Below, in pieces: positions 15,600 through 50,233 of a DNA stretch of 64,000 nucleotides. The notes beneath the pieces are model-generated. The model was not told the origin of the DNA, made no database searches, and was given only the letters and a program-made list of their open reading frames with translations. The position numbers and the translations under genes are program-made. Position 1 is the first letter of the stretch; each line of letters opens with the position of its first letter. The stretch comes from Platerodrilus igneus (lineage: Eukaryota > Arthropoda > Insecta > Coleoptera > Lycidae), in contig JARFIW010001364.1 of assembly GCA_036346225.1 (NCBI GenBank), forward strand, positions 992,001 through 1,056,000. The letters are read 5' to 3'.

Positions 15600-17812
15600 A
15601 ACAATTCCTTGTAATTCATTTGACGCCGCTTATATATAAAAGATCACACGACATATTTGGAGTTTTTAATCGACACTAGTGCACACCTTTGTGTATGCCC
15701 AAAACGCGAGGTTCCTAGACTACTCAAACCGACGAACTATCAATTGTTCGCTGTAAATGAGACTATCATAAACACATATGGTATTATCGCATTAACATAG
15801 GATTTGAGACTAAGGTGACCATTCACCTGGCAACTTGTCATCACCCACGTTAAGAAACCCATTATTGGAATGAATCTTCTCACACACCATGAATTACTGG
15901 TTAATGCAATTAAAAACAATAACCTTGTCGACTCAGAGACAAAACTTTTAACCAAAGGTCAACCCGTAATAATAAACGTAATGCATTATCAACCACGGTA
16001 TACAGTTCAAAACACCATAAAATTTTACCCAAATACCTGAACATAACCCCCTTCCGAGAGGCCTTCCCACTTCAATAATGCATATTACTAAACATTACAT
16101 TCTAATAACCCAAAAACCACCAGTATACAGTCGTCCACCCAGATTGGCACCCGACAAACACAAAGTCGCAAAAGATGAATTCACAACAGTGATTCAGTTA
16201 AGAATAGCAGGGCCATCCAAATGACCATGAGCACCACCCCTGCATTTAGTGGTCAAGCACATCTAAAGGTATCAACACATTGGAGACTACAAAGTTATAA
16301 ACGTTCACACAATTACTAATAAGTATCCTATGTCGCTTGTGTAAGATTTTGTACAAAGACTACAAGGCTGGAAAATTTTTTCTACAATAGATCTTGCTAG
16401 AGCCTATAACCAATTACCCGTAGCTGAAAAAGACATAAAAATGACAACTATAGCAACACTTTTTGGGTTATTCGAATTTCTATACGTAGCCTTTGGATTA
16501 CGAAACCCCGCAAAAGCATTTCAGCGATTTATGATTGAAGTTTTAAGCGGATTGGAATTCTGTTATGCCTACATGGGCATTTTGGTAGCATCTCATTCTG
16601 AAGAATAAAACAGAAAATATTTAAAAATTCTCTTTAACAGATTAAAAGATTACGACGCGGTCACAGACCCTGCTAAATGAATCTTTGGGCAAGATGTAGT
16701 TAAATTTCTTGGTTGCTTCATCCCTAAAATTAGTTGGCAACAAACGACTACCAGAAAAAATCAGCATTATATAGAATTTAACAATTCCTGAGACAGCCAA
16801 AACCTCAGAGGATTCTTAGGCATGTTAAGTTTCATACCATAAGCAACTGAGTCACAGGTTACGCTGAACGATCCACTAAAAGGCCAAATCAAATGCAGCG
16901 CGACTATAAATTGGATAAGCGAAGTAAACATAGCTCTCGAGAAGCGTAAAGGACAGCTAGTACAAGCTCGGCTGCTGACGCAGTGTTGCTGTCAGGGGAG
17001 TAACACAACAATAAGCAATCAACAATTTTTATTCTAAAAAACTAACTATTTCCAAACAAAATATTTCGCATATAAACGAAAACCTCTCGCAATTTACCTA
17101 ACTCTCAAACACTTTAAAATCATGTTAAACAGTAGATATTTCACGATCCACACAGACTACAACCTCTAATCCTCGTTTTCTAACAGGAGTTTAGAAAATG
17201 TACTGGCAACTTATTTATCTGGATTACCGGACTCAATATTCGACACACATCAAACACTTCGGGGAAAGAAAACATTGTCGTAGACACACTTACAAAAATG
17301 GATAGCTTTTACATGTTACTCAGAGTTACAACAGATTAAGGCTATCAGTTTGAATCACAACTATTGAAACAACTAGCAACCTAGATCGGACTCAAAAGAA
17401 TCCGCACAACAGCATATCACCCGCAGTCCAATAGCATAGTGGAACGATTCCAAGCAATAACTGAAGTCTGCATTGATACGCTACGAGACAAAAAATGGAC
17501 AGAAGCATTAGCTTTAGTTCTACTCGAAATCAGAAACGCTTGGAGCTGCAGGGCTTACACTTGGTGAAACGTTACGACTATCAGAAGAATCTCTCTCAAG
17601 TTCGACTAAGCCAACAGAACAAACACATAATGAGGCGCTTGCAAACCAGCCACTTTACCACTTTTAACGGCTATAACCAGTCTAAGGCACCAAGCACAGC
17701 GGCAGGCAAATATTTCTATTCAAATTGTTTAAAAACTTATGCTACATTTCTGTACACTTTGAAAGCAACCAAAATGTTTTACAATGTACATAGAATGGAC
17801 CAAACAAGGTAA
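15600..17812 (+). pseudogene. pol of Gypsy element A (broken)
   Basis: Domains can be followed across frames. Protease: LIDTSAHLCVCPKR near 15665, where the usual DTGA is DTSA. Reverse transcriptase: STIDLARAYNQLPV near 16380 and VAFGLRNPAKAFQRFM near 16490. The catalytic YxDDxL block near 16565 reads CYAYMGILVAS, so both Asp are gone. RNase H: a short AIYLTLKHFKIM-like piece near 17090. Integrase: TAYHPQSNSIVERFQAI near 17405 and the following helix, which ends at a stop near 17565. Many stops separate the pieces. From 17420 onward the sequence also exists in the right arm. Confidence 0.85.
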
Positions 17813-18044
17813 TTCACATGGACGACAAAACAGTCATAATCGACTAACAAGGTAAGAATTCAACTGTTACAATCGACAGAGTCAAACCAGCATATATGGC
17901 CAACAAATCCTCAAAAAAGTCAACACGAGCCCAGAAGAACAAACTTATACTCCTACAATGACGATTACTAGGAGCGGTAGAAGAGTACAGTTCCCAAAAG
18001 AATGTATCACCTTTTATCGTTACCAACTCAGAATGGAGGTATAT

Positions 18045-18911
18045 TGGAGTAAGCAACCAGCCATACTCCTAACTAACTGACCAATAGGCTTGCAGCATGC
18101 AAATAAATAGCATGTACGGTTAAAACATCCCTTAAACAATACTTGACTCATTCGACACATCTCAAAATACATAATAGAAGCATCTGAACGGGCACTGCAA
18201 ACAAACCCAGGACACAAAAAGAGCTTTAAACGCTAGGACAACTTATTTCTTATTTGTTCTGCTTTTCAAGTTGTTACCAATTTCCGTGAAGGAAACTTAA
18301 GAATAATGCAGGACGGAAGTCACCAAGCTTCTCGCGTACTAAGGATTTTCCTTCAGATTATTTTTTTGTAACCACCAAATCTAAGGGGATAAAATGAAGC
18401 AAACCTCTATAACTACACTACGGTCGCAGGAGCCGGTCACAAAATAGCTTGAAACGGCTTCATTTCTGAAGCCATCTGAACCACCGTCTAAAACACATGA
18501 CGCCAACAAGCACGCCAGGATTGAGAACATTTCGCCATCGGCTTGCTCCAATTTTATACCAACCAAGATTGACGCCATTATGCCAGCATATACACCTACC
18601 AAGTGCAGGGTACCAAAGCGTGGAAATTTTTTCCCAGTCACCATCACTAGGTGTCGCATTGCCTTCAGCGTAACGATAGACATCATCCTTTGCACAACAA
18701 AGAACCAGGTCTTTATCGTAAAGATACAAAATTCAGATTTAAAATGTAGAGACTCATTCAGCAACTTTACAAACTAAAGTGCTGTCTATTCTAGTGTTAA
18801 AAAACATTTGCGATTTAATTTTGTACACAACCACTTTTGTAAATATCTTGTTTGTGTGTCATGCCTTTAATATAATCAGCAAGGTGACCCGAGACAAACC
18901 AGAACGCCACA
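18045..18911 (+). repeat. 3' LTR of Gypsy element A
   Basis: Partner of the 5' LTR at 13856-14709, with the same landmarks in the same order and about 13 bases longer. It lies wholly inside the left arm, and its inverted duplicate at 48742-49608 is far closer to it (about 1 percent different in the stretch compared) than its own 5' LTR. That dates the arm duplication well after the element insertion. Confidence 0.85.
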
Positions 18912-19302
18912 CTGCATAAATTCAAGAACTGATTCCATATCTAAACACAAGGAGTGCCTGAAGCCTGTTATCGAGAGCAAAGTATAAAATGGTAATTACT
19001 TTTTAATTACTAGTAGTTATTTTAAAAGATTACCATTACCCACGCTAAAAAGTAGTAATCCCAACGGGACAGGCACATTTGTAGGTATACATACGTTCAT
19101 ATAGAGGTTGCACGTTTAAATCGCTTGGTGACCTATAGATTTATGCGGCCGCAGCACAGTATTCTTATATAGTATTCTCTAAGAATTTCTTTTATTTGTA
19201 TGCAATAGACTAATTTTTAAATACAAATATATTTTTGTAAAGCATATACACCGCCTCATTTATTTATATGTATGCGACCGGATTGATGTTTTGTTTCGTA
19301 AT
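18912..19302. other. Unassigned stretch between two LTR elements
   Basis: AT-rich, no coding region. A loose inverted repeat with arms ATGGTAAT and ATTACCAT lies at about 18989-19038 with a TA-rich loop. The BEL/Pao element was inserted at its right edge. Confidence 0.5.
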
Positions 19303-19307
19303 GTTTC

Positions 19308-20024
19308 TGTAAATTAATTGCAGTGTAAATTTCGACAACTAATATGGAAGAGAGAATGGACTGTATATAAATTTAAATGATATTGTAACCAACGACAAAT
19401 AATTAAATGTCTTAAAACAAATCAATTAATCAAAGCGTATACTATGAGCACTCACCTGGTTAATGATGCGGCCGTGCCGATAAAAAAAAACGTTGTAACA
19501 AATACGACTCTACCTTTGGCAGATGAAGTGAAGCACAACTTTAACGATAACGATTTAGCAAAGCGGTTCATAAGTGTAATACTTATTATAAATCACGGCG
19601 GCGTGTAACAAAGCGGTTTATCCAATTAATTCTACATAGCACGTGTAAACTCGATGCGGTGTAATCGACAGCGGTGCATACACAATAGCGATGCGAACAG
19701 TTTTCACGACGAAACGAGAAACTCTCAACAAAGCGGATCATACGTAATTAGTTTTACGTATAATGAGTACAAAATGCGATGCGGTCAGTTCGAAAAACGA
19801 AACTATCCTCTTCTGGCTTCGTGGATTTTCCAATCGATATTTGTTTGCAGATGCGCACTAACACACAGAATTTTATCACTCACGACAGTTTTTGGCGCGT
19901 CCTTAGTAAACACATGGGGCTTTTGCAATAACAAATTTTAAATATACACGCGGCGAATTTAAAATAACCAACAAACTCAATGAAATAAAATTTAACTATA
20001 AATTATTTACATAAAAACGGAACA
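19308..20024 (-). repeat. 3' LTR of BEL/Pao left copy
   Basis: Near-identical to 24732-25447. On the minus strand it runs from TGTTCCG at 20024 to TTTACA at 19308. The few differences from the 5' LTR (for example near 19500 and 19590) show moderate age. Confidence 0.93.
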
Positions 20025-20160
20025 TATTGCCCACCAAAATGCAAAGCATTTAAAAAAAATAATTATTAGGCTGGGGAGCGGAATGACCAAGCGAAAAAAA
20101 GCGAACAAGAAACAAAAAAAGGATCTACAAAAACAAAAGAAAGAAAGGAGAATTTTTTTT

Positions 20161-21105
20161 CTACATTGCGGGCACAGGGCAGAGCTTTGACCCAGTAATA
20201 GAAAAGGGACCAGCGAAGTCGACGCCAGAACACAAAAAAAATCTAACTTGAGTAACTCGACATGAAGGCAGATTGCCCATGGGAGGTTGCAATGCGACAG
20301 GATTGGTCTTCCAGCACGTTAGACAGTGACTCAAAATACGACGGATGGATCGCCTTCCAGAAATAATCCAGAAGTGCTGACTGACGGAAAAATGAACCAT
20401 TTGAGCACCCGCGTGGAAGTATTTCAAATGAACGTAAGTAACATACAGATCGGTGAATCGATCTTTGCTAGGTAACAAAGCGGGAAATTTACGGTCAGAG
20501 GACAAAGGTGCGTGAGCCAGGCGACCTCCGACGCGCAAGATTCCATCACGAATAAAAGGAGACAATTTGCGAAAGCTCTTTTTTAAAGAGGAATCAGAAT
20601 GAATTGCTTCAAGTGCGATAGCAAAATAAGATTGTTGAGTATACACAGGCAAAGGGATCAGAGCATTGTGCAACTCAGAAGACGACAAAGGTCCGGAGTA
20701 CCTTTCGAGTGGGTGACGCAGATTATGACGAAAACGGAAAATCCAAGCAACAATGCGAATAATACATGGAAAAAAAAGAGTGATTTTTTAGAATTGATTC
20801 AATCCAAGAGGATGCTACGACAGCGGATAAAACAATAGAGCGTTGTTCAGTGAGAACTTCAAAAATATCAAAAAAGCGGAATAAGTGGAGTGTAATTTTC
20901 GAAAGACCGATACAAGGTTGGTGAAGCCGCCCACCATAGAGAACATTGGCACAAGTCGGTAGGGAATAAACCACGTAACCCCACATTGACAGGATTCTCG
21001 GTGGAGGCGATGTGATGCAAAGAGGCGCAAGACGTGTTTTCCTGAATGTAAGCAACACGATTGGCGACGAAAGTCTTCTAACGCTGCGGCGTGGAACGAA
21101 TTCAC
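20161..21105 (-). pseudogene. BEL/Pao RNase H end and integrase N-terminus
   Basis: The frame 20688-20161 carries the N-terminal zinc-binding part of a BEL/Pao integrase: LRVGGRLAHAPLSSDRKFPA, then HLKYFHAGAQMVHF and ILSHCLTCWKTNP, giving the H-H-C-C set, and then SGVDFAGPFSI, which holds the first catalytic Asp. The protein stops there, 137 bases from the LTR, so the rest of the D-D-E core is missing. Frames at 20723-21105 carry the preceding RNase H and linker region (STENPVNVG-like pieces) in two frames. The truncation is shared with the right-arm copy. Confidence 0.85.
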
Positions 21106-21285
21106 AAAAGCACTACCATGGAGTCAGACCAACAGTAAATTTTATAAAAAGTAAGGTTCGAATCAAAAGTTTTGAGGACAAAGGTTAATAATTTTGATGA
21201 CAAAGTGGCGGCCAACAATTCGAGACTAGGTATAGTGATTGTACAAAGGGGTGCGACCTTTGACTTAGCGCACGCTAAGCGAAGC

Positions 21286-22611
21286 TCAACGGCGGAAGGA
21301 GTAACAAAGTGAAAATAAACAACAGCACAGTATCGGAAGCGTTAGCAAAGCAGAGAACTTCGCACGTAGTAAACTGTGGCGGGATAAGCAAGCGGGGTAA
21401 AGCGAAATCCGAAAGAAGCGGTAACTCATGCAAGTATCTCTCCCACAAACGGAGGAGGTCGGGGGAGGAGGAGCATCCCAATCTAATTTTAATGACCATA
21501 AACGTTGAATTAAGTAATTTACCAGAAAAGTAAGGGAGATAAAAGTCCCATGGGGGTCAAAAATACGAGCTAAGTTAGAAAGTAGGTTACGTTTAGTACA
21601 GCGTGTACTTAGTGGCTGAACTAGAAAACAAAAATTATCTGAAGTGGGATTCCATTGAAGACCCAAAACTTTTAAAGGTTGAGTATCAGGATCCTCAAAG
21701 GAGCGGGGTTGCGCGAATTGCTGCGTAGCGGAAAGATCTTTTAACAATGCGCGGGATGGTTACTTGACCGTTTATGAAGTCCGAAACCACCAAGTTTTAA
21801 AACAGCAATTAGTTGGTTACGTAGAGCGAGGGTTGATTCAAAAGAATCTCCACCAGTAGCGATGTCATCAATATAAGTATGGTGGCGAAGTGCAAAAGCG
21901 GCTAACGGATAAGAATTTCCTTCGTCCACGGCCAACTGCTGAAGCGTTCGTATGGCAAGAAAGGGAGCACAATTGATTCCGTACGTAACGGTATTTAATT
22001 TAAAATCCTGAATGGGCTCCTCAGGGGAGAAGCGCCAAACAATTCGTTGATAGTCACACTGAGCGGGATTTACAAGAATTTGTCTGTACATCTGACGAAT
22101 ATCGGCAGTGACAACATAAGGATGAAAACGAAATTGTAACAAAATTGCGGTAATATCAGGTTGCACCTTCGGCCCAACGAACAAGTGATCGTTTAAGGAC
22201 GATTGAGATAAAGTTTTAGCGGAAGCGTTGAAAACTACTCGTAATTTCGTACTTACGCTTTCGGGTTTCACAACGCAATGATGCGGGATGTAATAATAAA
22301 AGTTCGAATGAGACCCAATAACAACAGATTGCATATGTTGAGAATCAAGATATTCACGCATAAACTAAACGTATTGTTCGTAAATACGAGATTGCTTGGG
22401 TAGACGATTTTCTAAAGCGACAAACCGTTGTAAGGCAAAATCACGACTATGTGGAAAAAATGGTTCGTGATCTCTAAACGGCAGTGAGACGACATATCGA
22501 CCTTGTTCATTGCGGCGAAACGTATCGACAAAATGTTTTTCAACAAGAGTTTCTTCAAGCGTGAAAGGTTGAGCACCGGGGACAGTTTCGACTTCCTAGA
22601 ATTTAGCGACA
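21286..22611 (-). pseudogene. BEL/Pao reverse transcriptase (broken)
   Basis: The frame 22361-21741 has RVVFNASAKTLSQSSLND, VVTADIRQMYRQILVNPAQ, YGINCAPFLAIRTLQQLA and the active site HHTYIDDIATGG with both Asp intact. After a frame change at about 21745, KVLGLQWNPTSDNFCF and LLSNLARIFDPHGTFI follow, the thumb motifs of this superfamily. Upstream, at 22611-22370, the pre-RT segment reads HFVDTFRRNEQGRYVVSLPF in another frame. A TAG just before it stands where the family has the Trp of an FWEVE-like motif. The stop and the frame change occur in both arms. Confidence 0.9.
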
Positions 22612-23348
22612 ATATCTTCCAATGGGTAAGTAGAATCTGTCATACAAGACAAGCTAGTTATTTCAGAAGCGGGCGAGGAAGGTATGTTTCCCATTAAAAC
22701 ATATCCAAAGATGGCATTAATAGCAACAGGTTGATCGCTATCACCCTGGATGCGACCGTCTAATAACACTTGGGGGAAAATAACCACGCCAAGTAAGAAA
22801 TCAATGGGTTCAGATTGAGCAAATAGCGGATCTGCTAGCTTGAGGTTAGCCAGATGATTGAAATGTTCCAAAGAAATATTAGAAGTAGGTAAATTCTCAC
22901 AAATTTTGGGAAGTACTACAATTTGAAAATTAATAATCGGTGAAGAAACACATATTGGTTTGAGCGAAACGGCGACAGTACCATGCCGAGCAGCAGAGCG
23001 CATGGAACCTAAACCACTAAGGGCAAGAGAATGTGGGGTAGTACGAAAACCTAAACGTTTCACACTACCTTGCGAAATAAAAGAAGTCATGCTTCCTGAA
23101 TCGAGTAAACCGCAAAATTGCTGGAAAGAACCAGAGCAATCAGCAATTTCCACTTGAACGGTGGAAAGTAAAACAACTGAAGGTTTAACTAAAGAATTAA
23201 ATAAAACGACATTCAAAGTTGACGGACCACTGCAGCTAAACGAAGTCGATGATTCTTCAGAAACACGTGGTGCGGAAGACCTGTAGCGGTTTTGAGTAGC
23301 GGGAATAGTGCGAGATGATACCTTAGAGGCGGAGGTGTCCGGGCTCAA
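22596..23348 (-). pseudogene. BEL/Pao aspartic protease region (DUF1758)
   Basis: An open frame of 250 residues. The protease active site is FCGLLDSGSMTSFISQGSV near residue 85, followed by the flap-like region and FLLGVVIFPQVLLDGRIQ, then the linker to the reverse transcriptase. The Met at the start is not a true start, because the polyprotein continues from gag across a stop at 23349-23354. In the right arm a 4-base deletion breaks the corresponding start. Confidence 0.88.
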
Positions 23349-23354
23349 GCGAGC

Positions 23355-24503
23355 CTAGTTGCTAGCAGCGAAAGCGGATTTAGACGAAACGCGATCGAAG
23401 TGCAATAACGAATTATGACGTTGATTGCATTGGCGGCATGAAAAAGTAGACTTAGGTTTATTTAAAATGTGATAATTACTAAGGCAATTAATACACAGAT
23501 GTTGGTTTTTTGCAAAGTTGTAGCGATCTTGCGACGAAAGTTTAACGAAATCATTACAGCGATAAAGATTGTGATCTTGGTTGCAAAGCGGACATTTATT
23601 AACACTATGTTTTGTCTGGATTAACTTGGAAACAGCGGAGCGAGGTTTAGACGGATTGCTAGAATGAATAACTTTGTTTAAATCAGTTTTATGATTTATC
23701 GACAAATTCGATAAGGATTTACACGTATTTTCCAGATAAGCAATTAACTTTTTATAAGATGGGATAGCGGTCGGATCTTGGCGAATTTCAAAACTACAAG
23801 CAGTGTGTACATCCAAGCGGTTTAATATCATTTGTACAAGAATGAAATCCCAATACTCTACGGGCAAATCAAATTTTTTAAGCGCCTGTAAATTATCCAC
23901 AAAAGTATCAACTAATTTTTGCAAACCGACGGGGTTATCAGAGTTTAATTTAGGAAATTTATCAATTTTGTTCTATAGAGCAGAGGTAATGTGACGAATA
24001 TTACGATATTTTTCACGAAGTTTTGTGTATGCAAGAGCGTAATTGGCTTCAGTAAGGTCGAAGTTTTTAATGGTTAGGAGTGCGGAACTTTCAAACAGAG
24101 AACTTTCCCCATCAAATGTAGGCAGCGTCAGCGGCGGTAATAATACTTTTAATCTTAAGTTATCTAGCGGCGGCGGGGACACCTCAACCTGAGGTGAAGA
24201 TTGGCTGGTAAGCAGCTTGAAATATATCGCTTTTATTTTAAAATAGTTGTTAAAACGTTTTCGTATAACGTCTTCTAACTCAAATTTTTCATCAGCGTCA
24301 CCGGCTGAAGAAATTGCATCCACAGCTCAATTGTGATGCGTGAAGAAATTTTTCTTAACGGTCTCCAACGAGTCATATTAGGCGCGAAATAAATCTAAAA
24401 AAGCGGGTTTGACGGTAGATTTTTTAGCAATCTCCAACACTTCTTCTAGCGACTTAATTGCAGTGTTACGTAAAAAACAATTACGCTTTAGCTTTTCTGC
24501 CAT
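23355..24503 (-). pseudogene. BEL/Pao gag (broken)
   Basis: The likely gag start is MAEKLKRNCFLRN at 24503, since the longer upstream frame begins in leader sequence. The DUF1759-like capsid part contains LPPLTLPTFDGESSLFES. The C-terminal Cys-rich part has CPLCNQDHNLYRC, CINCLSNYHI and CRQCNQRHNSLLH, as in BEL/Pao nucleocapsids. Two stops shared by both arms, one TGA after a THHN motif and one TAG after ITSAL, interrupt it. It was therefore dead before the arms were copied. Confidence 0.88.
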
Positions 24504-24731
24504 AGTTAAATATAAATACAAAACAAACGCAGAGGAAACAAGAACGAAAAACTTGATGATTTTAATAGCCAAGCGGCGACAACAGACGTAAACCTATTGC
24601 ACGAAAGATAAGGAATACTCGCAACTAACTTAACGATACAAATTATACTAATTGGCTGTCACTGCTTTGACGAGCAGTATAATTAATAATGAGTTTGTTA
24701 TTTATTCCAAATCCGGCGAGAAGCATAACAA

Positions 24732-25447
24732 TGTAAATTAATTGCGGTGTAAATTTTGACAACTAATATGGAAGAGAGAATGTACTATATAAATTTAGAT
24801 GATATTGTATTCAACAACAAATAATTAAATGTCTTTAAACAAATCATTTAATCAAAGCGTTTACTATGAGCACTCACCTGGTTAATGATGCGGCCGTGCC
24901 GATAAAAAAAAACATTGGAACAAATACGACTCTTCCTTTGGCGGATGGAGGGAAGCACAACTTTAACGATAGCGGTTTAGCAAAGCGGTTCATAAGTGTA
25001 ATACTTATTATAAATAGCGGCGGCGTGTAACAAAGTGGTTCATCCATTTAATTCTACGGAGCACGTGTAAACTAGATGCGGTGTATTCGACAGCGGTTCA
25101 TACACAATAGCGATGCGAACAGTTTTCACGACGAAACGAGAAACTCTCAACAAAGCGGTTCATACGTAATTAGTTTTACGTATAACGAGTACAAAATGCA
25201 ATGCGGTCAGTTTGAAAAACGAAACCATCCTCTTCTGGCTTCGTGGATTTTCCAGTCGATACTTGTTTGCAGATGCGCACTAACACACAGAGCTTAATCA
25301 CTCACGGCAATGTTTTGGCGCGTTCTTAGTAAGCACATGGGGCTTTTGCAATAACAAATTTAAAATATACACGCGGCGAATTTAAAATAACCAACAAACT
25401 CAATGAAATAAAATTTAACTATAAATTATTTACATAAAAACGGAACA
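24732..25447 (-). repeat. 5' LTR of BEL/Pao left copy
   Basis: Starts TGTTCCG at 25447 and ends TTTACA at 24732 on the minus strand. It contains several copies of an AACCGCTTTG motif, for example around 24990, 25030 and 25160, which may be promoter elements or internal repeats. Target duplication GTTTC follows at 25448-25452. Confidence 0.93.
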
Positions 25448-25452
25448 GTTTC

Positions 25453-27162
25453 TCTAGTAGATACACAGAGCATCCAGTTTAATATAATGTATATGTGAAT
25501 ATTGAAAGTCGTTTAAGATACGAGATTAGTTATTCATCATCAGGTTCTCAGTTCTGAAACTGGTTGAGCTAACCTACACATTTTCCTGAAGTTCTTACAG
25601 CCTAGATACAGCTAGGTTCCGATTCTATTGTTTTCTAAATAAATATCCTATTTCACCGCTATTCAGTGATATCTGAAGGGGGAAGAGGGTAAGCAATCTG
25701 CGGGTATCAGGATTCTAGCGGCTCCGCAGGGTAGTGGTGTGTATGTGACTACTACGCCCAAGGTCCCGGGTTCGAATCCCGACACGATCCGCTTGAAAAA
25801 TGTTAGGCGAGCATTTTTCACAAAAATACACCCTCGTTCGGACGAGAGGTAAAATGGAGGTACCGCGTGTGAGTGTTGTCACGCACGTTAAAGATCCCTA
25901 CCTTGCTTGGAACAGCAAGGGTTCGGCAAAATTCCAAATTTTTCAGGTAAAAAGAACTCGCTTCCTGGCCAATGTAGTACCTTTGGTTGGAGCATTAGAA
26001 AGTCACATCTAAGGCTACCAGGATCCCCAACACTTAGACATTTTCCAAATTAATAGGTTTCTAATAAATCCATTCGCACAATTAATATTTGTTGAGAATA
26101 TTGCAGCACCAACAGCTGTAGTTGCATATAATAATGATCAGGTTTAAGTACAATTATTTTTTTCGTCATTAGGTTTTTAGTCTCGGAACTATTTAGACGC
26201 GTGTCTCCATTGATTGCTACTCTGAGCTAGCCTACACGATTTCCTGAAATCTCCACAGCCTACATCTTTGACATAGTTTTATTTTATTGGTTTGTGGATG
26301 ACGAAAATAAATTCAATTAGCAAATTAAATTCAACTGGTTAGACGCGTACCATCATTGTTACCTATTCTGATCTAACTTCCACGTTTCCCTTAAATTCTC
26401 ACAGTATGTATCTTTCACTATCTGCGTGCAATAGTTTGATCTAGGTTTACCCCTACCTTCCTCTTTTTCCATTTGTGTTTGTAATATATTCCACACTATT
26501 CCCCAAATGCCTTAGAAATTGCCCTGCTTTCCTACTTGTCCTTTTTCTTTGTTTTTTAGAATCTTTTTCTCATTAACTTTATCTGTCCATGCCATCGTCA
26601 TCATCATACCTCTGAAGCGCAACATACCAAAAGGCATCTACCTTTTTCCTGTTTGTTACTCCTACTGTCCCTATTCCATTGCCGTAGAGAGGGTGCTCCA
26701 CACATACGCTTTCACCAATTTTCTCCTTAGTTCTGTGTTTGTTCTCTTCAAACATTAGCGCTGACTTATCTTTTTAGATATAGGGGAACCCTTCTATTTT
26801 TTTCACCAATATTCAGTAGTATGTGAATGGGGTTAATTGATCTGAGGCTGCCAAGATCCCCAGCACTTGATCATTTGCCGAAGTAATAGTTTCCAATAAA
26901 TCCTTTCGCACAATCACCATTAGTTGAAAATATTGCAACACTAACGCATGTGTTCTTTATAATAATCATTAGGTTTAATTGTATTTGCTTTTCATCAATA
27001 AAGTTTCTGCCTTGGAACTGGTTGGACGCGTACCTCCACTGATTTCTATTCTGAGCTATCCTACATATTTCTCTGAAATTCCCACAGTTTAGATACAGCT
27101 CGGTTCCCCTTCTAATGTTTTCTAAATATTTATCCTATTTCACCGTTGTTCATTGGTATGTG
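25453..27162 (-). repeat. Row of RTE LINE 3' tails
   Basis: At least three partial copies of the RTE-like LINE tail lie head to tail on the minus strand (about 25490-25712 continuing at 26016-26290; 26810-27080; 27160 onward). Each repeats the landmarks ATTAATATTAGTTGA-like, ATAATAATCATCA-like, a segment around GGAACTGGTTGGACGCG, and GCTTAACC on the complementary strand. The SINE at 25714 interrupts one. The piece at 26519-26758 contains a diverged C-terminal coding remnant. Confidence 0.75.
25714..26015 (+). mobile_element. tRNA-derived SINE
   Basis: The head (25714-25795) looks like a tRNA: an A-box-like GCAGGGTAGTGG and a perfect B box GGTTCGAATCC, both parts of an internal RNA polymerase III promoter. 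A body of about 220 bases follows with CACGTTAAAGATCCC and a TTCCAAATTTTTCAGG end. It sits inside a LINE tail and is flanked by near-perfect 9-bp target duplications (TATCAGGAT at 25705 and TACCAGGAT at 26016). In the right arm both copies of the duplication are perfect. Length and structure exclude a true tRNA gene. Confidence 0.85.
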
Positions 27163-32116: not shown

Positions 32117-32158
<42 letters not shown>

Positions 32159-35462: not shown

Positions 35463-35483
35463 ACACACTCACACATACACACA

Positions 35484-35538: not shown

Positions 35539-35540
<2 letters not shown>

Positions 35541-38945: not shown

Positions 38946-40499
38946 TACAAATCTAATTTTAGTGAAGTATACATTCGTTCATAGAGATACAAAGCCATAA
39001 AATGGGAAATTATTCTCAAACTCAGGAAAGCTAAAGAACAATGGATTGATGAAAAGTGCAAAGAGGTACAAACTAAGATGGAAATAGGAAAGACAGACGA
39101 AGCACACAAACTAATTAGAATCAATTTTAGGGATATAAAATCAACTACCAAAACATATAACAGACATGGAGGAAGTCATCATTATAGGAAATGTAGAGAA
39201 AGTGGTTAGTTAGATGGCAAGAATATATAGAGAACTTATATGCAGAGAGGAACTAGCAGCACTAGAACAGGAATCTGGCATTGAAAAAGATGACTAGGGG
39301 CACCCTATACCTAAAGATAAGTTTTAATTAGGATCTAATAACTGATAAAATGGAAAAAAATGTTCGAAATACTCAAAAAGATTGGAATGGATTTTAGAGG
39401 TAAACGGAAGTACTTAGCTTATACAAAGAGCCAACATGGGTAATAGAATTAGAGCAGGAACTTAGAGAAGTAGATATTAGGAAAGTGGCGAGAGAGGAAT
39501 GTGCACTTTCTCTGTTAATTTTTAACTTGTACATCAAAGATGCAATGGAAACTGTCAATTGCAGGAACACATTTGGGTTATTATGCAGGGACAAAAGATT
39601 GATATGCTTAGATTTGTGGATGATATAGCAGTAATAGCATTTAGCAAGGCAGAGTTAGAAGCGGCTCTTAAAGAATGAAAACTTCTAACAGAAAGACACG
39701 GTATGCAAATTGGCAAAGATAAAACTAAAGTACTAGTATGTAAAGGAGGGAAAAATAAATCAAAAACTAGGAAGCCAAATAACGCAAGATTGGGAAAGCG
39801 CAAAGGATACAAAACAATGATTAGCACAAGGTCGCGCTACATTTAACAAGAAAAAGCAACTACTGTGATCAAAGAGAACAAACACAGAAGCATGGAAAAA
39901 GGTACTGTAGGCATATGTGTGGAGCACAGCACTGTACTGTGATACCTGGACAGCAGGAGAAGCGTACAGGAAAAAGATAGAAGTCTTTGAAGTGTAGTGC
40001 TACATACGTATGATGAAGTAATAGACAGACAAAGTTAAGAACAAAAAGATTCTAGAAATGGTCTGGGAAAGAATAAATAAGTGGAAAACAGTAAAAAATA
40101 ATAGAAATAGAATGATAGGTCACATACTAATGCATGAGAGAATAGTGCGGAATGTATTAGGAGCAAATATAAGAAAACAGAGAGGTAAAGGTAAACCCAG
40201 ATTAGACCACTGCACACAGATAGTCAAAGATGTAGGCTGTGGAAATTTCAGGGGATCATGTAGGCGAGCTCATAGTAAAAATCAATGGAGGTAGGCGTCC
40301 AAGCAGTTCCGAGACATATAACCTAATAACGAAAAAAAATAATTGTACCTAAACGTGATGATTATTATAATGAACTACAGGTGTTGGTTTCGCAATATCA
40401 ACTAATATTAATTGTGCGAATGATTTACAGAAAAACTATTAGTTTGGCAAATGTCTAAGTGTTAGAGATCCTGCTAGCCGCAGATTGCTTAACCACCTT
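38946..40499 (+). pseudogene. RTE-like LINE fragment, right-arm copy
   Basis: Inverse of 27163-28716. The active-site block near 39600 again reads RFVDDIAV. The C-terminal frame 40058-40294 with NRMIGHILMHERIV is identical to its left-arm partner over 78 residues. A small private change near 39565 removes a TG from the HIWVIMQG segment and breaks the frame. Confidence 0.85.
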
Positions 40500-42207
40500 T
40501 CACATACCAATGAACAACGGTGAAATAGGATAAATATTTAGAAAACATTAGAAGGGGAACCGAGCTGTATCTAAACTGTGGGAATTTCAGAGAAATATGT
40601 AGGATAGCTCAAAATAGAAATCAGTGGAGGTACGCGTCCAACCAGTTCCAAGGCAGAAACGTTATTGATGAAAAGCAAATACAATTAAACCTAATGATTA
40701 TTATAAAGAACACATGCGTTAGTGTTGCAATATTTTCAACTAATGGTGATTGTGCGAAAGAATTTATTGGAAACTATTACTTCGGCAAATGATCAAGTGC
40801 TGGGGATCTTGGCAGCCTCAGATTAATTAACCCCATTCACATACTACTGAATATTGGTGAAAAAAATAGAACGGTTCCCCTATATCTAAAAAGATAAGTC
40901 AGCGCTAATGTTTGAAGAGAACAAACACAGAACTAAGGAGAAAATTGGTGAAAGCGTATGTGTGGAGCACCCTCTCTACGGCAATGGAATAGGGACAGTA
41001 GGAGTAACAAACAGGAAAAAGGTAGATGCCTTTTGGTATGTTGCGCTTCAGAGGTATGATGATGACGATGGCAGGGACAGATAAAGTTAATGAGAAAAAG
41101 ATTCTAGAAAACAAAGAAAAAGGACAAGTAGGAAAGCAGGGCAATTTCTAAGGCATTTGGGGATTAGTGTGGAATATATTACAAACACAAATGGAAAAAG
41201 AGGAAGGTAGGGGTAAACCTAGATCAAACTATTGTACGCAGATAGTGAAAGATACATACTGTGAGAATTTAAGGGAAACGTGGAAGTTAAATCAGAATAG
41301 GTAACAATGATGGTACGCGTCTAACCAGTTGAATTTAATTTGCTAATTGAATTTATTTTCGTCATCCACAAACCAATAAAATAAAACTACGTCAAAGATG
41401 TAGGCTGTGGAGATTTCAGGAAATCATGTAGGCTAGCTCAGAGTAGCAATCAATGGAGACACGCGTCTAAATAGTTCCGAGACTAAAAACCTAATGACGA
41501 AAAAAATAATTGTACTTAAAACCTGATCATTATTATATGCAACTACAGCTGTTGGTGCTGCAATATTCTCAACAAATATTAATTGTGCGAATAGATTTAT
41601 TAGAAACCTATTAATTTGGAAAATGTCTAAGTGTTGGGGATCCTGGTAGCCTTAGATGTGACTTTCTAATGCTCCAACCAAAGGTACTACATTGGCCAGG
41701 AAGCGAGTTCTTTTTACCTGAAAAATTTGGAATTTTGCCAAACCCTTGCTGTTCCAAGCAAGGTAGGGATCTTTAACGTGACAACACTCACACGCGGGAC
41801 TTCCATTTTACCTCTCGTCCGAACGAGGGTGTATTTTTGTGAAAAATGCTCGCCTAACATTTTTCAAGCGGATCGTGTCGGGATTCGAACCCGGGACCTT
41901 GGGCGTAGTAGTCACATACACACCACTACCCTGCGGAGCCGCTAGAATCCTGGTACCCGCAGATTGCTTACCCTCTTCCCCCTTCAGATATCACTGAATA
42001 GCGGTGAAATAGGATATTTATTTAGAAAACAATAGAATCGGAACCTAGCTGTATCTAGGCTGTAAGAACTTTAGGAAAATGTGTAGGTTAGCTCAACCAG
42101 TTTCAGAACTGAGAACCTGATAATGAATAACTAATCTCGTATCTTAAACGACTTTCAATATTCACATATACATTATATTAAACTGGATGCTCTGTGTATC
42201 TACTAGA
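40500..42207 (+). repeat. Row of RTE LINE 3' tails, right-arm copy
   Basis: Inverse of 25453-27162, with the SINE inserted at 41649-41946 between its two target duplications. Confidence 0.75.
41649..41946 (-). mobile_element. tRNA-derived SINE, right-arm copy
   Basis: Inverse of 25714-26015, about four bases shorter. Flanked by perfect copies of ATCCTGGTA at 41640-41648 and 41947-41955. The A-box-like and B-box elements are intact (41870-41946). Confidence 0.87.
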
Positions 42208-42212
42208 GAAAC

Positions 42213-42928
42213 TGTTCCGTTTTTATGTAAATAATTTATAGTTAAATTTTATTTCATTGATTTTGTTGGTTATTTTAAATTCGCCGCGTGTATATTTTAA
42301 ATTTGTTATTGCAAAAGCCCCATGTGTTTACTAAGAACGCGCCAAAACATTGCCGTGAGTGATTAAGCTCTGTGTGTTAGTGCGCATCTGCAAACAAGTA
42401 TCGACTGGAAAATCCACGAAGCCAGAAGAGGATGGTTTCGTTTTTCGAACTGACCGCATTGCATTTTGTACTCGTTATACGTAAAACTAATTACGTATGA
42501 ACCGCTTTGTTGAGAGTTTCTCGTTTCGTCGTGAAAACTGTTCGCATCGCTATTGTGTATGAACCGCTGTCAAATACACCGCATCTAGTTTACACGTGCT
42601 CCGTAGAATTAAATGGATGAACCACTTTGTTACACGCCGCCGCTATTTATAATAAGTATTACACTTATGAACCGCTTTGCTAAACCGCTATCGTTAAAGT
42701 TGTGCTTCCCTCCATCCGCCAAAGGAAGAGTCGTATTTGTTCCAATGTTTTTTTTTATCGGCACGGCCGCATCATTAACCAGGTGAGTGCTCATAGTAAA
42801 CGCTTTGATTAATTGATTTGTTTAAAAACATTTAATTATTTGTTGTTGAATACAATATCATCTAAATTTATATAGTCCATTCTCTCTTTCATATTAGTTG
42901 TCAAAATTTACACCGCAATTAATTTACA
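42213..42928 (+). repeat. 5' LTR of BEL/Pao right copy
   Basis: Inverse of 24732-25447, with the same AACCGCTTTG-type motifs and TG/CA ends. Confidence 0.93.
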
Positions 42929-43156
42929 TTGTTATGCTTCTCGCCGGATTTGGAATAAATAACAAACTCATTATTAATTATACTGCTCGTCAAAGCAGTG
43001 ACAGCCAATTAGTATAATTTGTATCGTTAAGTTAGTTGCGAGTATTCCTTATCTTTCGTGCAATAGGTTTACGTCTGTTGTCGCCGCTTGGCTATTAAAA
43101 TCATCAAGTTTTTCGTTCTTGTTTCCTCTGCGTTTGTTTTGTATTTATATTTAACT

Positions 43157-44305
43157 ATGGCAGAAAAGCTAAAGCGTAATTGTTTTTTACGTAACACTGC
43201 AATTAAGTCGCTAGAAAAAGTGTTGGAGATTGCTAAAAAATCTACCGTCAAACCCGCTTTTTTAGATTTATTTCGCGCCCAATATGACTCGTTGGAGACC
43301 GTTAAGAAAAATTTCTTCACGCATCACAATTGAGCTGTGGATGCAATTTCTTCAGCCGGTGACGCTGATGAAAAATTTGAGTTGGAAGACGTTATACGAA
43401 AACGTTTTAACAACTATTTTAAAATAAAAGCGCTATATTTCAAGCTGCTTACCAGCCAATCTTCACCTCAGGTTGAGGTGTCCCCGCCGCCGCTAGATAA
43501 CTTAAGATTAAAAGTATTATTACCGCCGCTGACGCTGCCTACATTTGATGGGGAAAGTTCTCTGTTTGAAAGTTCCGCATTCCTAACCATTAAAAACTTC
43601 GACCTTACTGAAGCCAATTACGCTCTTGCATACACAAAACTTTGTGAAAAATATCGTAATATTCGTCACATTACCTCTGCTCTATAGAACAACATTGATA
43701 AATTTCCTAAATTAAACTCTGACAACCCCGTCGGTTTGCAAAAATTAGTTGATACTTTTGTGGATAATTTACAGGCGCTTAAAAAATTTGATTTGCCCGT
43801 AGAGTATTGGGATTTCATTCTTGTACAAATCATATTAAACCGCTTGGATGTACACACTGCTTGTAGTTTTGAAATTCGCCAAGATCCGACCGCTATCTCA
43901 TCTTATAAAAAGTTAATTGCTTATCTGGAAAATACGTGTAAATCCTTATCGAATTTGTCGATAAATCATAAAACTGATTTAAACAAAGTTATTCATTCTA
44001 GCAATCCGTCTAAACCTCGCTCCGCTGTTTCCAAGTTAATCCAGACAAAACCTAGTGTTAATAAATGTCCGCTTTGCAACCAAGATCACAATCTTTATCG
44101 CTGTAATGATTTCGTTAAACTTTCGTCGCAAGATCGCTACAACTTTGCAAAAAACCAACATCTGTGTATTAATTGCCTTAGTAATTATCACATTTTAAAT
44201 AAACGTAAGTCTACTTTTTCATGCCGCCAATGCAATCAACGTCATCATTCGTTATTGCACTTCGATCGCGATTCGTCTAAATCCGCTCTCGCTGCTAGCA
44301 ACTAG
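43157..44305 (+). pseudogene. BEL/Pao gag, right-arm copy
   Basis: Likely start MAEKLKRNCF at 43157. It has the same two internal stops as the left copy (TGA near 43331, TAG near 43685). The Cys-rich part differs from the left copy at roughly eight of 189 residues, for example RHHSL against RHNSL. It ends at a stop just before the protease region. Confidence 0.88.
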
Positions 44306-44308
44306 GCT

Positions 44309-45059
44309 CGCTTGAGCCCGGACACCTCCGCCTCTATCATCTCGCACTATTCCCGCTACTCAAAACCGCTACAGGTCTTCCGCACCTCGTGTTTCTGAAG
44401 AATCATCGACTTCGCTTAGCTGCAGTGATCCGTCAACTTCGAATGTCGTTTTATTTAATTCTTTAGCTAAACCTTCAGTTGTTTTACTTTCCACCGTTCA
44501 AGTGGAAATTGCTGATTGCTCTGGTTCTTTCCAGCAATTTTGCGGTTTGCTCGATTCAGGAAGCATGACTTCTTTTATTTCGCAAGGTAGTGTGAAACGT
44601 TTAGGTTTTCGTACTACCCCACATTCTCTTGCCCTTAGTGGTTTAGGTTCCATGCGCTCTGCTGCTCAGCATGGTACTGTCGCCGTTTCGCTCAAACCAA
44701 TAAGTGTTTCTTCACTGATTATTAATTTTCAAATTGTAGTACTTCCCAAAATTTGTGAGAATTTACCTACTTCTAATATTTCTTTGGAACATTTCAATCA
44801 TCTGGCTAACCTCAAGCTAGCAGATCCGCTATTTGCTCAATCTGAACCCATTGATTTCTTACTTGGCGTGGTTATTTTCCCCCAAGTGTTATTAGACGGT
44901 CGCATCCAGGGTGATAGCGATCAACCTGTTGCTATTAATGCCATCTTTGGATATGTTTTAATGAGAAACATACCTTCCTCGCTCGCTTCTGAAATAACTA
45001 GCTTGTCTTGTATGACAGATTCTACTTCCCCATTGGAAGATATTGTCGCTAAATTCTAG
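44309..45059 (+). pseudogene. BEL/Pao protease region, right-arm copy
   Basis: Contains the LLDSGSMTSFISQGSV active site. Near 44335 four bases present in the left copy are missing, so the N-terminal part is out of frame and the open frame starts only at 44502. It ends at the shared TAG that replaces the FWEVE-type Trp. Confidence 0.87.
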
Positions 45060-46368
45060 GAAGTCGAAACTGTCCCCGGTGCTCAACCTTTCACGCCTGA
45101 AGAAACTCTTGTTGAAAAACATTTTGTCGATACATTTCGCCGCAATGAACAAGGTCGATATGTCGTCTCACTGCCGTTTAGAGATCACGAACCATTTTTT
45201 CCACATAGTCGTGATTTTGCCTTACAACGGTTTGTCGCTTTAGAAAATCGTCTACCCAAGCAATCTCGTATTTACGAACAATACGTTTCTTTTATGCGTA
45301 AATATCTTGATTCTCAACATATGCAATCTGTTGTTATTGGGTCTCATTCGAACTTTTATTATTACATCCCGCATCATTGCGTTGTGAAACCCGAAAGCGT
45401 AAGTACGAAATCACGAGTAGTTTTCAACGCTTCCGCTAAAACTTTAACTCAATCGTCCTTAAACGATCACTTGTTCGTTGGGCCGAAGGTGCAACCTGAT
45501 ATTACCGCAATTTTGTTACAATTTCGTTTTCATCCTTATGTTGTCACTGCCGATATTCGTCAGATGTACAGACAAATTCTTGTAAATCCCGCTCAGTGTG
45601 ACTATCAACGAATTGTTTGGCGCTTCTCCCCTGAGGAGCCCATTCAGGATTTTAAATTAAATACCGTTACGTATGGAATCAATTGTGCTCCCTTTCTTGC
45701 CATACGAACGCTTCAGCAGTTGGCCGTGGACGAAGGAAATTCTTATCCGTTAGCCGCTTTTGCACTTCGCCACCATACTTATATTGATGACATCGCTACT
45801 GGTGGAGATTCTTTGAATCAACCCTCGCTCTACGTAACCAACTAATTGCTGTTTTAAAACTTGGTGGTTTCGGACTTCATAAACGGTCAAGTAACCATCC
45901 CGCGCATTGTTAAAAGATCTTTCCGCTATGCAGCAATTCGCGCAACCCCGCTCCTTTGAGGATCCTGATACTCAACCTTTAAAAGTTTTGGGTCTTCAAT
46001 GGAATCCCACTTCAGATAATTTTTGTTTTCTAGTTCAGCCACTAAGTACACGCTGTACTAAACGTAACCTACTTTCTAACTTAGCTCGTATTTTTGACCC
46101 CCATGGGACTTTTATCTCCCTTACTTTTCTGGTAAATCACTTAATTCAACGTTTATGGTCATTAAAATTAGATTGGGATGCTCCTCCTCCCCCGACCTCC
46201 TCCGTTTGTGGGAGAGATACTTGCATGAGTTACCGCTTCTTTCGGATTTCGCTTTACCCCGCTTGCTTATCCCGCCACAGTTTACTACGTGCGAAGTTCA
46301 CTGCTTTGCTAACGCTTCCGATACTGTGCTGTTGTTTATTTTCACTTTGTTACTCCTTCCGCCGTTGA
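45060..46368 (+). pseudogene. BEL/Pao reverse transcriptase, right-arm copy
   Basis: Same motifs as the left copy, with HHTYIDDIATGG near 45775. Directly after the active site one T of a four-T run is lost (near 45813), so the frame ends at 45845. The thumb part continues at 45907-46368. Confidence 0.9.
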
Positions 46369-46548
46369 GCTTCGCTTAGCGTGCGCTAAGTCAAAGGTCG
46401 CACTCCTTCGTACAATCACTATACCTCGTCTCGAATTGTTGGCCGCCACTTTGTCATCAAAATTATTAACCTTTGTCCTCAAAACTTTTGATTCAAACCT
46501 TACTTTTCATAAAATTTACTGTTGGTCTGACTCCATGGTAGTGCTTTT

Positions 46549-47490
46549 GTGAATTCGTTCCCCGCCACAGCGTTAGAAAACTTTCGTCGCCAATCGTGTT
46601 GCTTACATTCAGGAAAACACGTCTTGCGCCTCTTTGCATCACATCGCCTCCACCGAGAATCCTGTCAATGTGGGGTTACGTGGTTTATTCCCTACCGACT
46701 TGTGCCAATGTTTTCTATGGTGGGCGGCTTCACCAACCTTGTATCGGTCTTTGAAAATTACACTCCACTTATTCCGCTTTCAGATATTTTTGAAGTTCTC
46801 ACTGAACAACGCTCTATTGTTTTATCCGCTGTCGTAGCATCCTCTTGGATTGAATCAATTTTAGAAAATCACTCTTTTTTTTCCATGTATTATTCGCATT
46901 GTTGCTTGGATTCTCCGTTTTCGTCATAATCTGCGTCACCCACTCGAAAAGTACTCCGGACCTTTGTCGTCTTCTGAGTTGCACAATGCTCTGATCCCTT
47001 TGCCTGTGTATACTCAACAATCGTATTTCGCTATCGCACTTGAAGCCATTCATTCTGATTCCTCTTTAAAAAAGAACTTTCGCAAATTGTCTCCTTTTAT
47101 TCGTGATGGAATCTTGCGCGTCAGAGGTCGCCTGGCTCACGCACCTTTGTCCTCTGACCGTAAATTTCCCGCTTTGTTACCTAGCAAAGATCGATTCACC
47201 GATCTGTATGTTACTTACGTTCATTTGAAATACTTCCACGCGGGTGCTCAAATGGTCCATTTTTCCGTCAGTCAGCACTTCTGGATTATTTCTGGAAGGC
47301 AATCCATCCGTCGTACTTTGAGTCACTGTCTAACGTGCTGGAAGACCAATCCTGTTGCATTGTAACCTCCCATGGGCAATCTGCCTTCATGTCGAGTTAC
47401 TCAAGTTAGATTTTTTTTGTGTTTGGGCGTCGACTTCGCTGGTCCCTTTTCTATTACTGGGTCAAAGCTCTGCCCTGTACCCGCAATGTA
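46549..47490 (+). pseudogene. BEL/Pao RNase H end and integrase N-terminus, right-arm copy
   Basis: Zinc-binding part with HLKYFHAGAQMVHF and LSHCLTCWKTNP. A change near 47363 creates a stop before the PMGNLPSCRV segment, which the left copy reads through; VDFAGPF follows in another frame. The integrase core is absent as in the left copy. Confidence 0.85.
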
Positions 47491-47627
47491 TAAAAAAAAT
47501 TCTCTTTTTTTTCTTTTGTTTTTGTAGATCCTTTTTTTGTTTCTTGTTCGCTTTTTTTCGCTTGGTCATTCCGCTCCCCAGCCTTATAATTATTTTTTTT
47601 AAATGCTTTGCATTTTGGTGGGCGGTA

Positions 47628-48345
47628 TGTTCCGTTTTTATGTAAATAATTTATAGTTAAATTTTATTTCATTGAGTTTGTTGGTTATTTTAAATTCGCC
47701 GCGTGTATATTTAAAATTTGTTATTGCAAAAGCCCCATGTGTTTACTAAGGACGCGCCAAAACACTGTCGTGAGTGATAAAACTCTGTGTGTTAGTGCGC
47801 ATCTGCAAACAAGTATCGATTGGAAAATCCACGAAGCCAGAAGAGAATAGTTTCGTTTTTCGAACTGACCGCATCGCATTTTGTACTCATTATACGTAAA
47901 ACTAATTACGTATGATCCGCTTTGTTGAGAGTTTCTCGTTTTGTCGTGAAAACTGTTCGCATCGCTATTGTGTATGAACCGCTGTCGAATACACCGCATC
48001 GAGTTTACACGTGCTACGTAGAATTAATTGGATAAACCGCTTTGTTACACGCCGCCGTGATTTATAATAAGTATTACACTTATGAACCGCTTTGCTAAAT
48101 CGCTATCGTTAAAGTTGTGCTTCACTTCATCCGCCAAAAGAAGAGTCGTATTTGTTCCAACGTTTTTTTTTATCGGCACGGCCGCATCATTAACCAGGTG
48201 AGTGCTCATAGTAAACGCTTTGATTAATTGATTTGTTTTGAGACATTTAATTATTTGTCGTTGGTTACAATATCATTTAAATTTATATACAATCCATTCC
48301 CTCTTCCATATTAGTTGTCGAAATTTACACTGCAATTAATTTACA
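47628..48345 (+). repeat. 3' LTR of BEL/Pao right copy
   Basis: Inverse of 19308-20024. Target duplication GAAAC follows at 48346-48350. Confidence 0.93.
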
Positions 48346-48741
48346 GAAACATTACGAAATAAAACATCAATCCGGTCGCATACATATAAATAAATGAGGC
48401 GGTGTATATGCTTTACAAAAATATATTTGTATTTAAAAATTAATCTATTGCATACAAATAAAAGAAATTCTTAGAGAATACTATATAAGAACACTGTGCT
48501 GCGGCCGCATAAATCTATAGGTCACCAAGCGATTTAAACGTGCAACCTCTATATGAACGTATGTATACCTACAAATGTGCCTGTCCCGTTGGGATTACTA
48601 CTTTTTAGCGTGGGTAATGGTAATCTTTTAAAATAACTACTAGTAATTAAAAAGTAATTACCATTTTATACTTTGCTCTCGATAACAGGCTTCAGGCACT
48701 CCGTGTGTTTAGATATGGAATCAGCTCTTGAATTTATGCAG
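48346..48741. other. Right-arm counterpart of 18912-19302
   Basis: Unassigned AT-rich sequence, nearly identical to its left-arm partner, no gene. Confidence 0.55.
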
Positions 48742-50233
48742 TGTGGCGTTCTGGTTTGTCTCGGGTCACCTTGCTGATTATATTAAAGGCATGACGCACA
48801 AACAAGATATTTACAAAAGTGGTTGTGTACAAAATTGAATCGCAAATGTCTTTTAACACTAGAATAGACAGCACTCTAGTTTGTAAAGTTGCTGAATGAG
48901 TCTCTGCATTTTAAATCTGAATTTTGTATCTTTACGATAAAGACCTGGTTCTTTGTTGTGCAAAGGATGATGTCTATCGTTACGCTGAAGGCAATGCGAC
49001 CCCTAGTGATGGTGACTGGGAAAAAATTTCCACGCTTTGGTATCCTGCGCTTGGTAGGTGTATATGCTGGCATAATGGCGTCAATCTTGGTTGGTATAAA
49101 ATTGGAGCAAGCCGATGGCGAAATGTTCTCAATCCTGGCGTGCTTGTTGGCGTCATGTGTTTTAGACGGTGGTTCAGATGGCTTCAGAAATGAAGCCGTT
49201 TCAAGCTATTTCGTGCCCGGCTCCTGCGACCGTAGTGTAGTTATAGAGGTTTGCTTCATTTTATCCCCTTAGATTTGGTGGTTACAAAAAAATAATCTGA
49301 AGGAAAATCCTTAGTACGCGAGAAGCTTGGTGACTTCCGTCCTGCATTATTCTTAAGTTTCCTTCACGGAAATTGGTAACAACTTGAAAAGCAGAACAAA
49401 TAAGAAATAAGTTGTCCTAGCGTTTAAAGCTTTTTTTGTATCCTGGGTTTGTTTGTAGTGCACGTTCAGATGCTTCTATTATGTATTTTGAGATGTGTCG
49501 GATGAGTCAAGTATTGTTTAAGGGATGTTTTAACCGTACATGCTATTTATTTGCATGCTGCGAGCCTATTGGTCAGTTAGTTAGGAGTATGGCTGGTTGC
49601 TTACTCCAATATACCTCCATTCTGAGTTGGTAACGATAAAAGGTGATACATTCTTTTGGGAACTGTACTCTTCTGCCGCTCCTAGTAATCGTCATTGTAG
49701 GAGTATAAGTTTGTTCTTCTGGGCTCGTGTTGACTTTTTTGAGGATTTGTTGGCCATATATGCTGGTTTGACTCTGTCGATTGTAACAGTTGAATTCTTA
49801 CCTTGTTAGTCGATTATGACTGTTTCGTCGTCCATGTGGATTACCTTGTTTGGTCCATTCTATGTACATTGTAAAACATTTTGGTTGCTTTCAAAGTGTA
49901 CAGAAATGTAGCATAAGTTTTTAAACAATTTGAATATAAATATTTGCCTGCCGCTGTGCTTGGTGCCTTAGACTGGTTATAGCCGTTAAAAGTGGTAAAG
50001 TGGCTGGTTTGCAAGCGCCTCATTATGTGTTTGTTCTGTTGGCTTAGTCGAACTTGAGAGAGATTCTTCTGATAGTCGTAACGTTTCACCAAGTGTAAGC
50101 TCTGCAGCTCCAAGCGTTTCTGATTTCGAGTAGAACTAAAGCTAATGCTTCTGTCCATTTTTTGTCTTGTAGCGTATCAATGCAGACTTCAGTTATTGCT
50201 TGGAATCGTTCCACTATGCTCTTGGACTGCGGG
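48742..50233 (-). mobile_element. 3' end of Gypsy element A, right-arm copy
   Basis: The 3' LTR of element A (48742-49608) and the end of its integrase (49609-50233, with PQSKSIVERFQAITEVCI near 50220-50170) in inverted orientation. The element has no 5' half here: at 50233 its integrase is cut just before the PQS motif and joined to the integrase of element B. It is therefore an orphan end created by the duplication. Confidence 0.88.

Follow-up and report, generated by a model that had tools for sequence, protein, structure and literature searches.

The closest described relatives of the structure considered here are the fold-back inverted duplications found in human patients. In the cases reported by Hermetz et al. 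(2014, PMC3907307), a spacer was present at 21 of 21 sequenced junctions and was 766 to 70,466 bp long (median 3,428 bp). Of these junctions, 13 had inverted microhomology of 2 to 8 bp, 3 had about 300 bp of homology between repeats, and 5 had insertions. In the fold-back model as presented there, a broken dicentric chromosome can be joined to another end. Here we describe an inverted duplication with two arms of about 16 kb, made as far as we can recognize of transposon DNA, in the lycid beetle Platerodrilus igneus. It lies within a stretch of 64,000 nucleotides (GenBank assembly GCA_036346225.1, contig JARFIW010001364.1, positions 992,001 to 1,056,000 of the forward strand), which we refer to as the window; all positions are those of the window.

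Like the human fold-backs described in PMC3907307, the beetle locus has inverted copies, a spacer (895 bp) within the published range, 3 bp of inverted microhomology at the end of the spacer, and a far end that lies on different sequence. Unlike those cases, its arms have diverged by 1.2% and their recognizable content is transposon DNA. Three other systems share part of this anatomy. The palindromes of the human Y chromosome, such as P6, also have inverted arms and a unique spacer, and the substitution-free stretches at this locus, about 1 kb long, can be set beside the 2,068 bp given as the mean minimum conversion tract in P6 (PMC3723533). However, the arm identity reported for the Y palindromes is over 99.9%, as compared to 98.5% here. 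Also, unlike the Y palindromes, the beetle arms gave no host gene in the frames that we scanned. Among invertebrates, Folsomia candida (a springtail) and Adineta vaga (a rotifer) also have inverted duplications that lie within a single scaffold, but as described in PMC5490193 these palindromes are gene blocks, with 11 of them in one springtail genome. Finally, staggered-break inversions in Drosophila subobscura leave inverted duplicates flanking a segment whose orientation is reversed (PMC5080602), but the former adjacency of the two cut ends that this implies is unsupported at our locus. The original prediction, which was made from the window's sequence, called such a palindrome unusual. Given the regular presence of spacers in the human cases and the springtail palindromes, this stands in part: the structure has the anatomy of a fold-back-type inverted duplication, which is an already described class.

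The inverted duplication

When the window was compared to itself with blastn, an opposite-strand match joined 17420-33365 to 50233-34261 with 98.474% identity (15,987 columns, 55 of them with gaps; 28,120 bits). In 20 simulated windows that preserved dinucleotide content, the top opposite-strand match scored just 49.1 bits. The match has precisely the limits that had been predicted for the two arms, and the self-alignment also reproduced the predicted 0.9-kb spacer and the coordinate sums of 67626 at the center and 67653 at the outer edge. A global alignment agrees with the predicted collinearity as well: the arms differ by 16 indels, the largest of which (32 bp) lies inside a GT microsatellite, and by 189 substitutions at 15,932 aligned sites (1.19%), including 132 transitions and 57 transversions. 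Differences are spaced about 84 bp apart on average, and no run of identical sequence between the arms exceeds 656 bp, so reads of a few kilobases would distinguish them. The features of the locus, in order along the window, are as follows (LTR, long terminal repeat; LINE, long interspersed nuclear element).

13854 to 18871, plus strand: older Gypsy-type element with an LTR-like pair and DUF7041, spanning the outer edge of arm A at 17420
17420 to 33365, plus strand: arm A, from the self-alignment
19308 to 25447, minus strand: BEL/Pao element in arm A, with LTRs at 19308-20024 and 24732-25447 and decayed frames
32054 to 33028, no strand: possible conversion tract, free of substitutions between arm A and arm B, with indels at 32138 and 32371
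33363 to 33365, plus strand: inner joint, with 3 bp of microhomology (CCT) common to arm A and the LINE; the inverted partner is AGG at 34261-34263
33366 to 34260, plus strand: spacer, 895 bp, unduplicated, from the central part of the reverse transcriptase gene of a LINE and native to arm B
34261 to 50233, minus strand: arm B, the reverse complement of arm A, from the self-alignment
42213 to 48345, plus strand: arm B copy of the BEL/Pao element, from the self-alignment
50231 to 50233, minus strand: outer joint, where arm B meets a truncated Gypsy element, with a 2-bp microhomology (CC), or 3 bp given a C variant
50234 to 54128, minus strand: right-flank Gypsy element, truncated, with reverse transcriptase, RNase H, and integrase domains (Pfam) but nothing of the part beyond the cut

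Joints and native sides

Both cuts lie within elements of multicopy transposon families, so the other family members can stand in for an ancestral genome when the joints and their native sides are read.

First, at the inner joint, arm A meets a LINE that fills the spacer and runs on into arm B. A homologous LINE protein (P0122) aligns to 33364-33675 and 33633-34508, so that it reaches from the arm A edge across the spacer and into arm B. We fetched 19 genomic copies of this LINE. In 17 of them, the LINE continues collinearly through 34261 into arm B; the matches of the other two (L010 and L019) stop earlier. All 19 copies carry on beyond 33363, with sequence upstream of the joint that is unlike arm A; the joint itself reads CCT in 18 copies and TCT in one (L011). 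The native parent of arm A, as read from arm B, has a different continuation following the same CCT. When we probed the genome with 33150-33750 (40 of 586 candidates were scored), the window was the only match across the full span among the matches listed. The LINE part matched at 39 other listed places, of which 35 begin at positions 214-216 of the query (33363-33365 of the window) and 4 begin further in, and two additional listed rows match the arm part alone. Since the LINE copies cross 34261 yet differ from arm A upstream, they show that the spacer and arm B are native to each other and that arm A was joined on, with 3 bp shared. The alignment of a distant LINE relative (P0125, 30%) starts at 33310, or 54 bases into arm A; we read this as over-extension because the match to the window ends at 33363-33365 in the 19 genomic copies.

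Second, at the outer joint, arm B runs into a Gypsy element that is cut at 50233. Among the matches listed for a probe of 50060-50500 (40 of 1,256 candidates scored), the window is the only full match, and all 39 of the others terminate at 50231-50234. The 19 Gypsy copies that we fetched part from the window's sequence at this joint, and the 15 homologues shown extend beyond the cut. (The gag match of this element scores below the Pfam cutoff.) At the cut, most of the 19 copies read GTCGCC and then CA; three have CC instead (L034, L047, and L051), and L039 has GTCGCA. The window reads GTCGCC and then CCGCAG, while the arm parent reads CACCCGCAG. Judging from these copies, the microhomology is 2 bp, or 3 bp if the Gypsy copy that broke carried the C variant. 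A microhomology of 12 bp had been read from the two arms alone, and we dropped it given the 2-3 bp in the 19 Gypsy copies.

The outer edge of arm A lies inside the older Gypsy-type element. Its LTR-like repeats (13854-14614 and 18040-18871) are 70% alike, a DUF7041 domain was found by Pfam at 14792, to the left of the edge, and an integrase-like frame, with stop codons a short way upstream, reads across 17420. Because the LTR-like pair and this frame straddle 17420, the edge looks native, albeit less strongly than the native sides called at the inner joint and at the cut Gypsy element. No target duplication was visible by eye in the sequences of the outer edges.

Content of the arms and order of events

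The original prediction described the arms as made wholly of transposon DNA. Everything that we identified in them is mobile-element DNA; that they contain no host gene is likely, because the scanned frames gave retroelement domains or nothing. Specifically, we ran Pfam on 6 of the 7 arm A frames of at least 150 amino acids: 4 have retroelement-related domains, and 22596-23354 and 30136-30696 have no match. Searches of the window with Rfam (at gathering scores) and for tRNAs found nothing. The predicted BEL/Pao element is confirmed by its two LTRs, each about 717 bp long, and by its 5-bp target duplication (GTTTC), with frames that are interrupted. Its matches to Integrase_H2C2 and Peptidase_A17 are above the Pfam cutoffs, and those to DUF1759 and RVT_1 are below.

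The LTRs of this element also order the events. The left and right LTRs differ by 5.5-6.0%, as compared to 1.1-2.2% for the same LTR across the arms. Of 53 gap-free variable columns, 29 split left from right in both arms and 24 are private (14 to arm A and 10 to arm B); none of the 53 suggests exchange between left and right LTRs. Because the divergence between left and right exceeds the divergence between the arms, the BEL/Pao insertion evidently predates the duplication and was already old by then.

To judge by the end of the BEL/Pao element and its flank (probe 25200-26100; 40 of 12,097 candidates scored), the two arms have the only full-length copies among the matches listed. The remaining listed matches are partial, and there is no third copy, second haplotype copy, or ancestral locus among them.

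Uneven divergence between the arms

Substitutions between the arms are clustered: their dispersion in 500-bp bins is 2.55, as compared to an expectation of about 1, and none of 5,000 random placements was as high. The maximal run free of substitutions is 1,063 bp (P = 0.0008), and a longer zone, 27051-29342, has just 2 substitutions. The sharpest contrast lies within one LINE, where 33028-33365 has 8 differences at 338 sites while 32390-33027 has 0 at 638 sites (Fisher P = 2e-4, for a region picked after seeing the data). These two parts have similar divergence from the LINE family, at 4.5-5.1% and 4.1-4.2%, respectively, as measured against 11 copies that we selected, among those covering the stretch, from the 19 fetched. 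Relative to the same 11 copies, the 8 differences divide into 3 that arose in arm A and 5 that arose in arm B; rows at 32390, which stem from an overhang at the end of arm B, are excluded. Because the stretch without differences adjoins a diverged one at similar distance from the family, the pattern suggests gene conversion from arm to arm over at least one stretch. The broader idea, that a palindrome without host genes is being partly homogenized by ongoing conversion between its arms, is one we put forward tentatively and hold to be somewhat doubtful.

We also considered two outgroups. A LINE at 10502-12494 is 79-84% like the LINE at 27161-28678, which is present in both arms. As an outgroup it informs on only 2 substitutions, which is too few to be useful, plus 2 A-like and 2 B-like indels, with no clear lean; 10 further A-like indel columns come from an overhang at the end of the aligned piece and are excluded. 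With the LTR-like repeat of the Gypsy-type element as the outgroup, 16 differences show no bias (7 are B-like, 6 are A-like, and 3 are unresolved).

Origin of the palindrome

We propose that the palindrome arose by fold-back, followed by divergence and some conversion, and we give this account a probability of roughly 60%. In this scenario, a double-strand break would have occurred within the LINE, and resection of the broken chromosome end would have exposed a single strand. This strand would then have folded back on itself, with CCT pairing with the AGG 895 bp further inward. Extension from this hairpin would have copied the adjacent DNA in reverse, and the unduplicated loop of the LINE would remain as the spacer. 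The resulting long inverted duplication, possibly dicentric, would have broken anew inside the older Gypsy-type element, at the position that became 50233, and microhomology end-joining would have linked that end to a broken end in another Gypsy copy. Later mutations would have made the arms diverge, while at least one stretch would have been evened out by gene conversion between them. We infer each of these steps, from the first break through the dicentric stage to conversion, from the anatomy of the locus and the divergence of its arms. Two inverted copies flank an unduplicated spacer; the spacer is natively continuous with one arm, as seen in the LINE copies that cross 34261; the spacer end and the arm end share a short inverted microhomology; and the second joint of the copied arm leads into other sequence. 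The layout (left flank with arm A, spacer with arm B, then right flank) and the microhomologies therefore match what fold-back predicts.

Several observations weigh against this account. Random joints would have at least 3 bp of microhomology in 6.2% of cases and at least 2 bp in 17.9%, and because chance microhomology is this frequent, the pathway cannot be proved from either joint by itself. Nothing at the locus shows a dicentric stage or the source of the right flank. The edge at 17420 is called native from the LTR-like pair and the reading frame. As for conversion, two indels sit inside the substitution-free stretch 32054-33028, and the clustering of differences could also stem from mutation or from the history of haplotypes. 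Also, 8 of the 16 indels lie within 26142-29309, where substitutions are sparse from about 26.9 kb. Arm A is the shorter in 7 of these 8, by one or two T in 6 of them, and this cluster may be polishing noise. Lastly, a two-step template switch during replication yields an identical anatomy.

In such a switch, by fork stalling and template switching (FoSTeS) or microhomology-mediated break-induced replication (MMBIR), a fork copying arm A would stall at 33365, jump 895 bp ahead to the opposite strand, copy back through the spacer and arm B, and then jump by microhomology to the right-flank Gypsy element, with no break and no dicentric chromosome. The 2-3 bp of microhomology at each of the two joints would suit it. 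However, neither joint has inserted or templated bases, and copying 16 kb in reverse with two jumps is no simpler than fold-back. We consider template switching unlikely, but not strikingly so.

Another alternative is an inversion by staggered breaks, in which the 895-bp segment was inverted and a 16-kb overhang left by one break was duplicated at both ends. This model likewise places inverted duplications around an inverted segment (PMC5080602). However, it needs the LINE cut at 33363 to have formerly adjoined the Gypsy cut at 50233. The LINE extends past its cut in every fetched copy. The fetched Gypsy copies include about 1.5 kb beyond the cut, and this part had no match (E of 1e-8; 19 copies) in the arms or within 10 kb to the left or right of the window. 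A single copy (L045) does match 56803-56996, outside the arms (195 bp, 84.6%, about 1.3 kb past the cut); the other 18 do not. Where the Gypsy copies match the arms, at 29677-29878 and 37779-37968 (75-80%), it is with the part before the cut. Thus, a staggered-break origin seems highly improbable.

The palindrome might instead be an artifact: a fold-back chimera formed during whole-genome amplification, an adapter that was missed, or a head-to-head join of two haplotypes. Chimeras from amplification are often palindromic; for two amplified data sets, PMC6218980 gives 43.6% and 47.8% of reads. The indel cluster at 26.1-29.3 kb resembles base-calling noise, and two haplotypes would also give clustered differences. 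However, a single molecule that folded back would give near-identical arms, while these arms have 189 substitutions with an excess of transitions and no exact run above 656 bp. Both arms have private changes, in the LINE (3 in A and 5 in B) as well as in the BEL/Pao LTRs. The joints are nonhomologous, without the long overlap that misassembly usually needs, and the contig is 1,688,325 bp long, in an assembly of 2.71 Gb in 1,723 contigs. An artifact is thus a very remote prospect. A giant transposon with terminal inverted repeats was ruled out because both outer edges are interior to older elements.

Other features of the window

Among the 52 rows listed for the genome probe 25200-26100, 34 match a unit of about 295 bp within the arms (25718-26012) at 92-95%. 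Copies of this unit are sometimes adjacent to each other (C884, C289, and C1010), and several relatives lie within 10 kb to the right of the window (L054).

Outside the arms, a frame at 1414-2001 is weakly similar (25-26%) to Gypsy polymerase and is a remnant of an element, without a Pfam match. An array of the hexamer GTGCGT occupies 2709-3177 (78 copies, 80% matches), and direct repeats of about 140-290 bp at 63201-63855 are 83-86% alike. Frames in 58212-62413 resemble Polinton/Maverick proteins (protease-like and minor-capsid-like). Of the four frames scanned there, one has a Pfam match, which is an integrase (rve) at 61556-62413. The organisms named among the listed protein relatives are beetles (Sitophilus oryzae and Ignelater luminosus).

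Stability and significance

The original prediction also held that a palindrome of this size should be unstable unless something such as the spacer protects it. Results from yeast with Alu-sized repeats partly answer this concern: recombination was about 300-fold lower with a spacer of 100 bp than with one of 12 bp, and a 1.5-kb spacer lowered gross rearrangements 31-fold; however, by the same account, spacer length gives no protection once the region is single-stranded (PMC10164571). By analogy, these results suggest that the 895-bp spacer makes the palindrome more tolerable in double-stranded DNA, but the arms in the yeast constructs are far shorter than 16 kb.

To our knowledge, fold-back inverted duplications have been studied mainly in patients, tumors, and yeast assays. 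If our account of this locus is correct, then a fold-back duplication has persisted in a beetle genome for long enough to accumulate 1.2% divergence between its arms. If the arms have indeed been partly homogenized, then conversion between inverted arms would follow from geometry alone, and selection for genes would be unnecessary. More broadly, the copies of a repeat family can serve as a proxy for a lost ancestor, and this approach could be used to classify similar scars in other repeat-rich assemblies.

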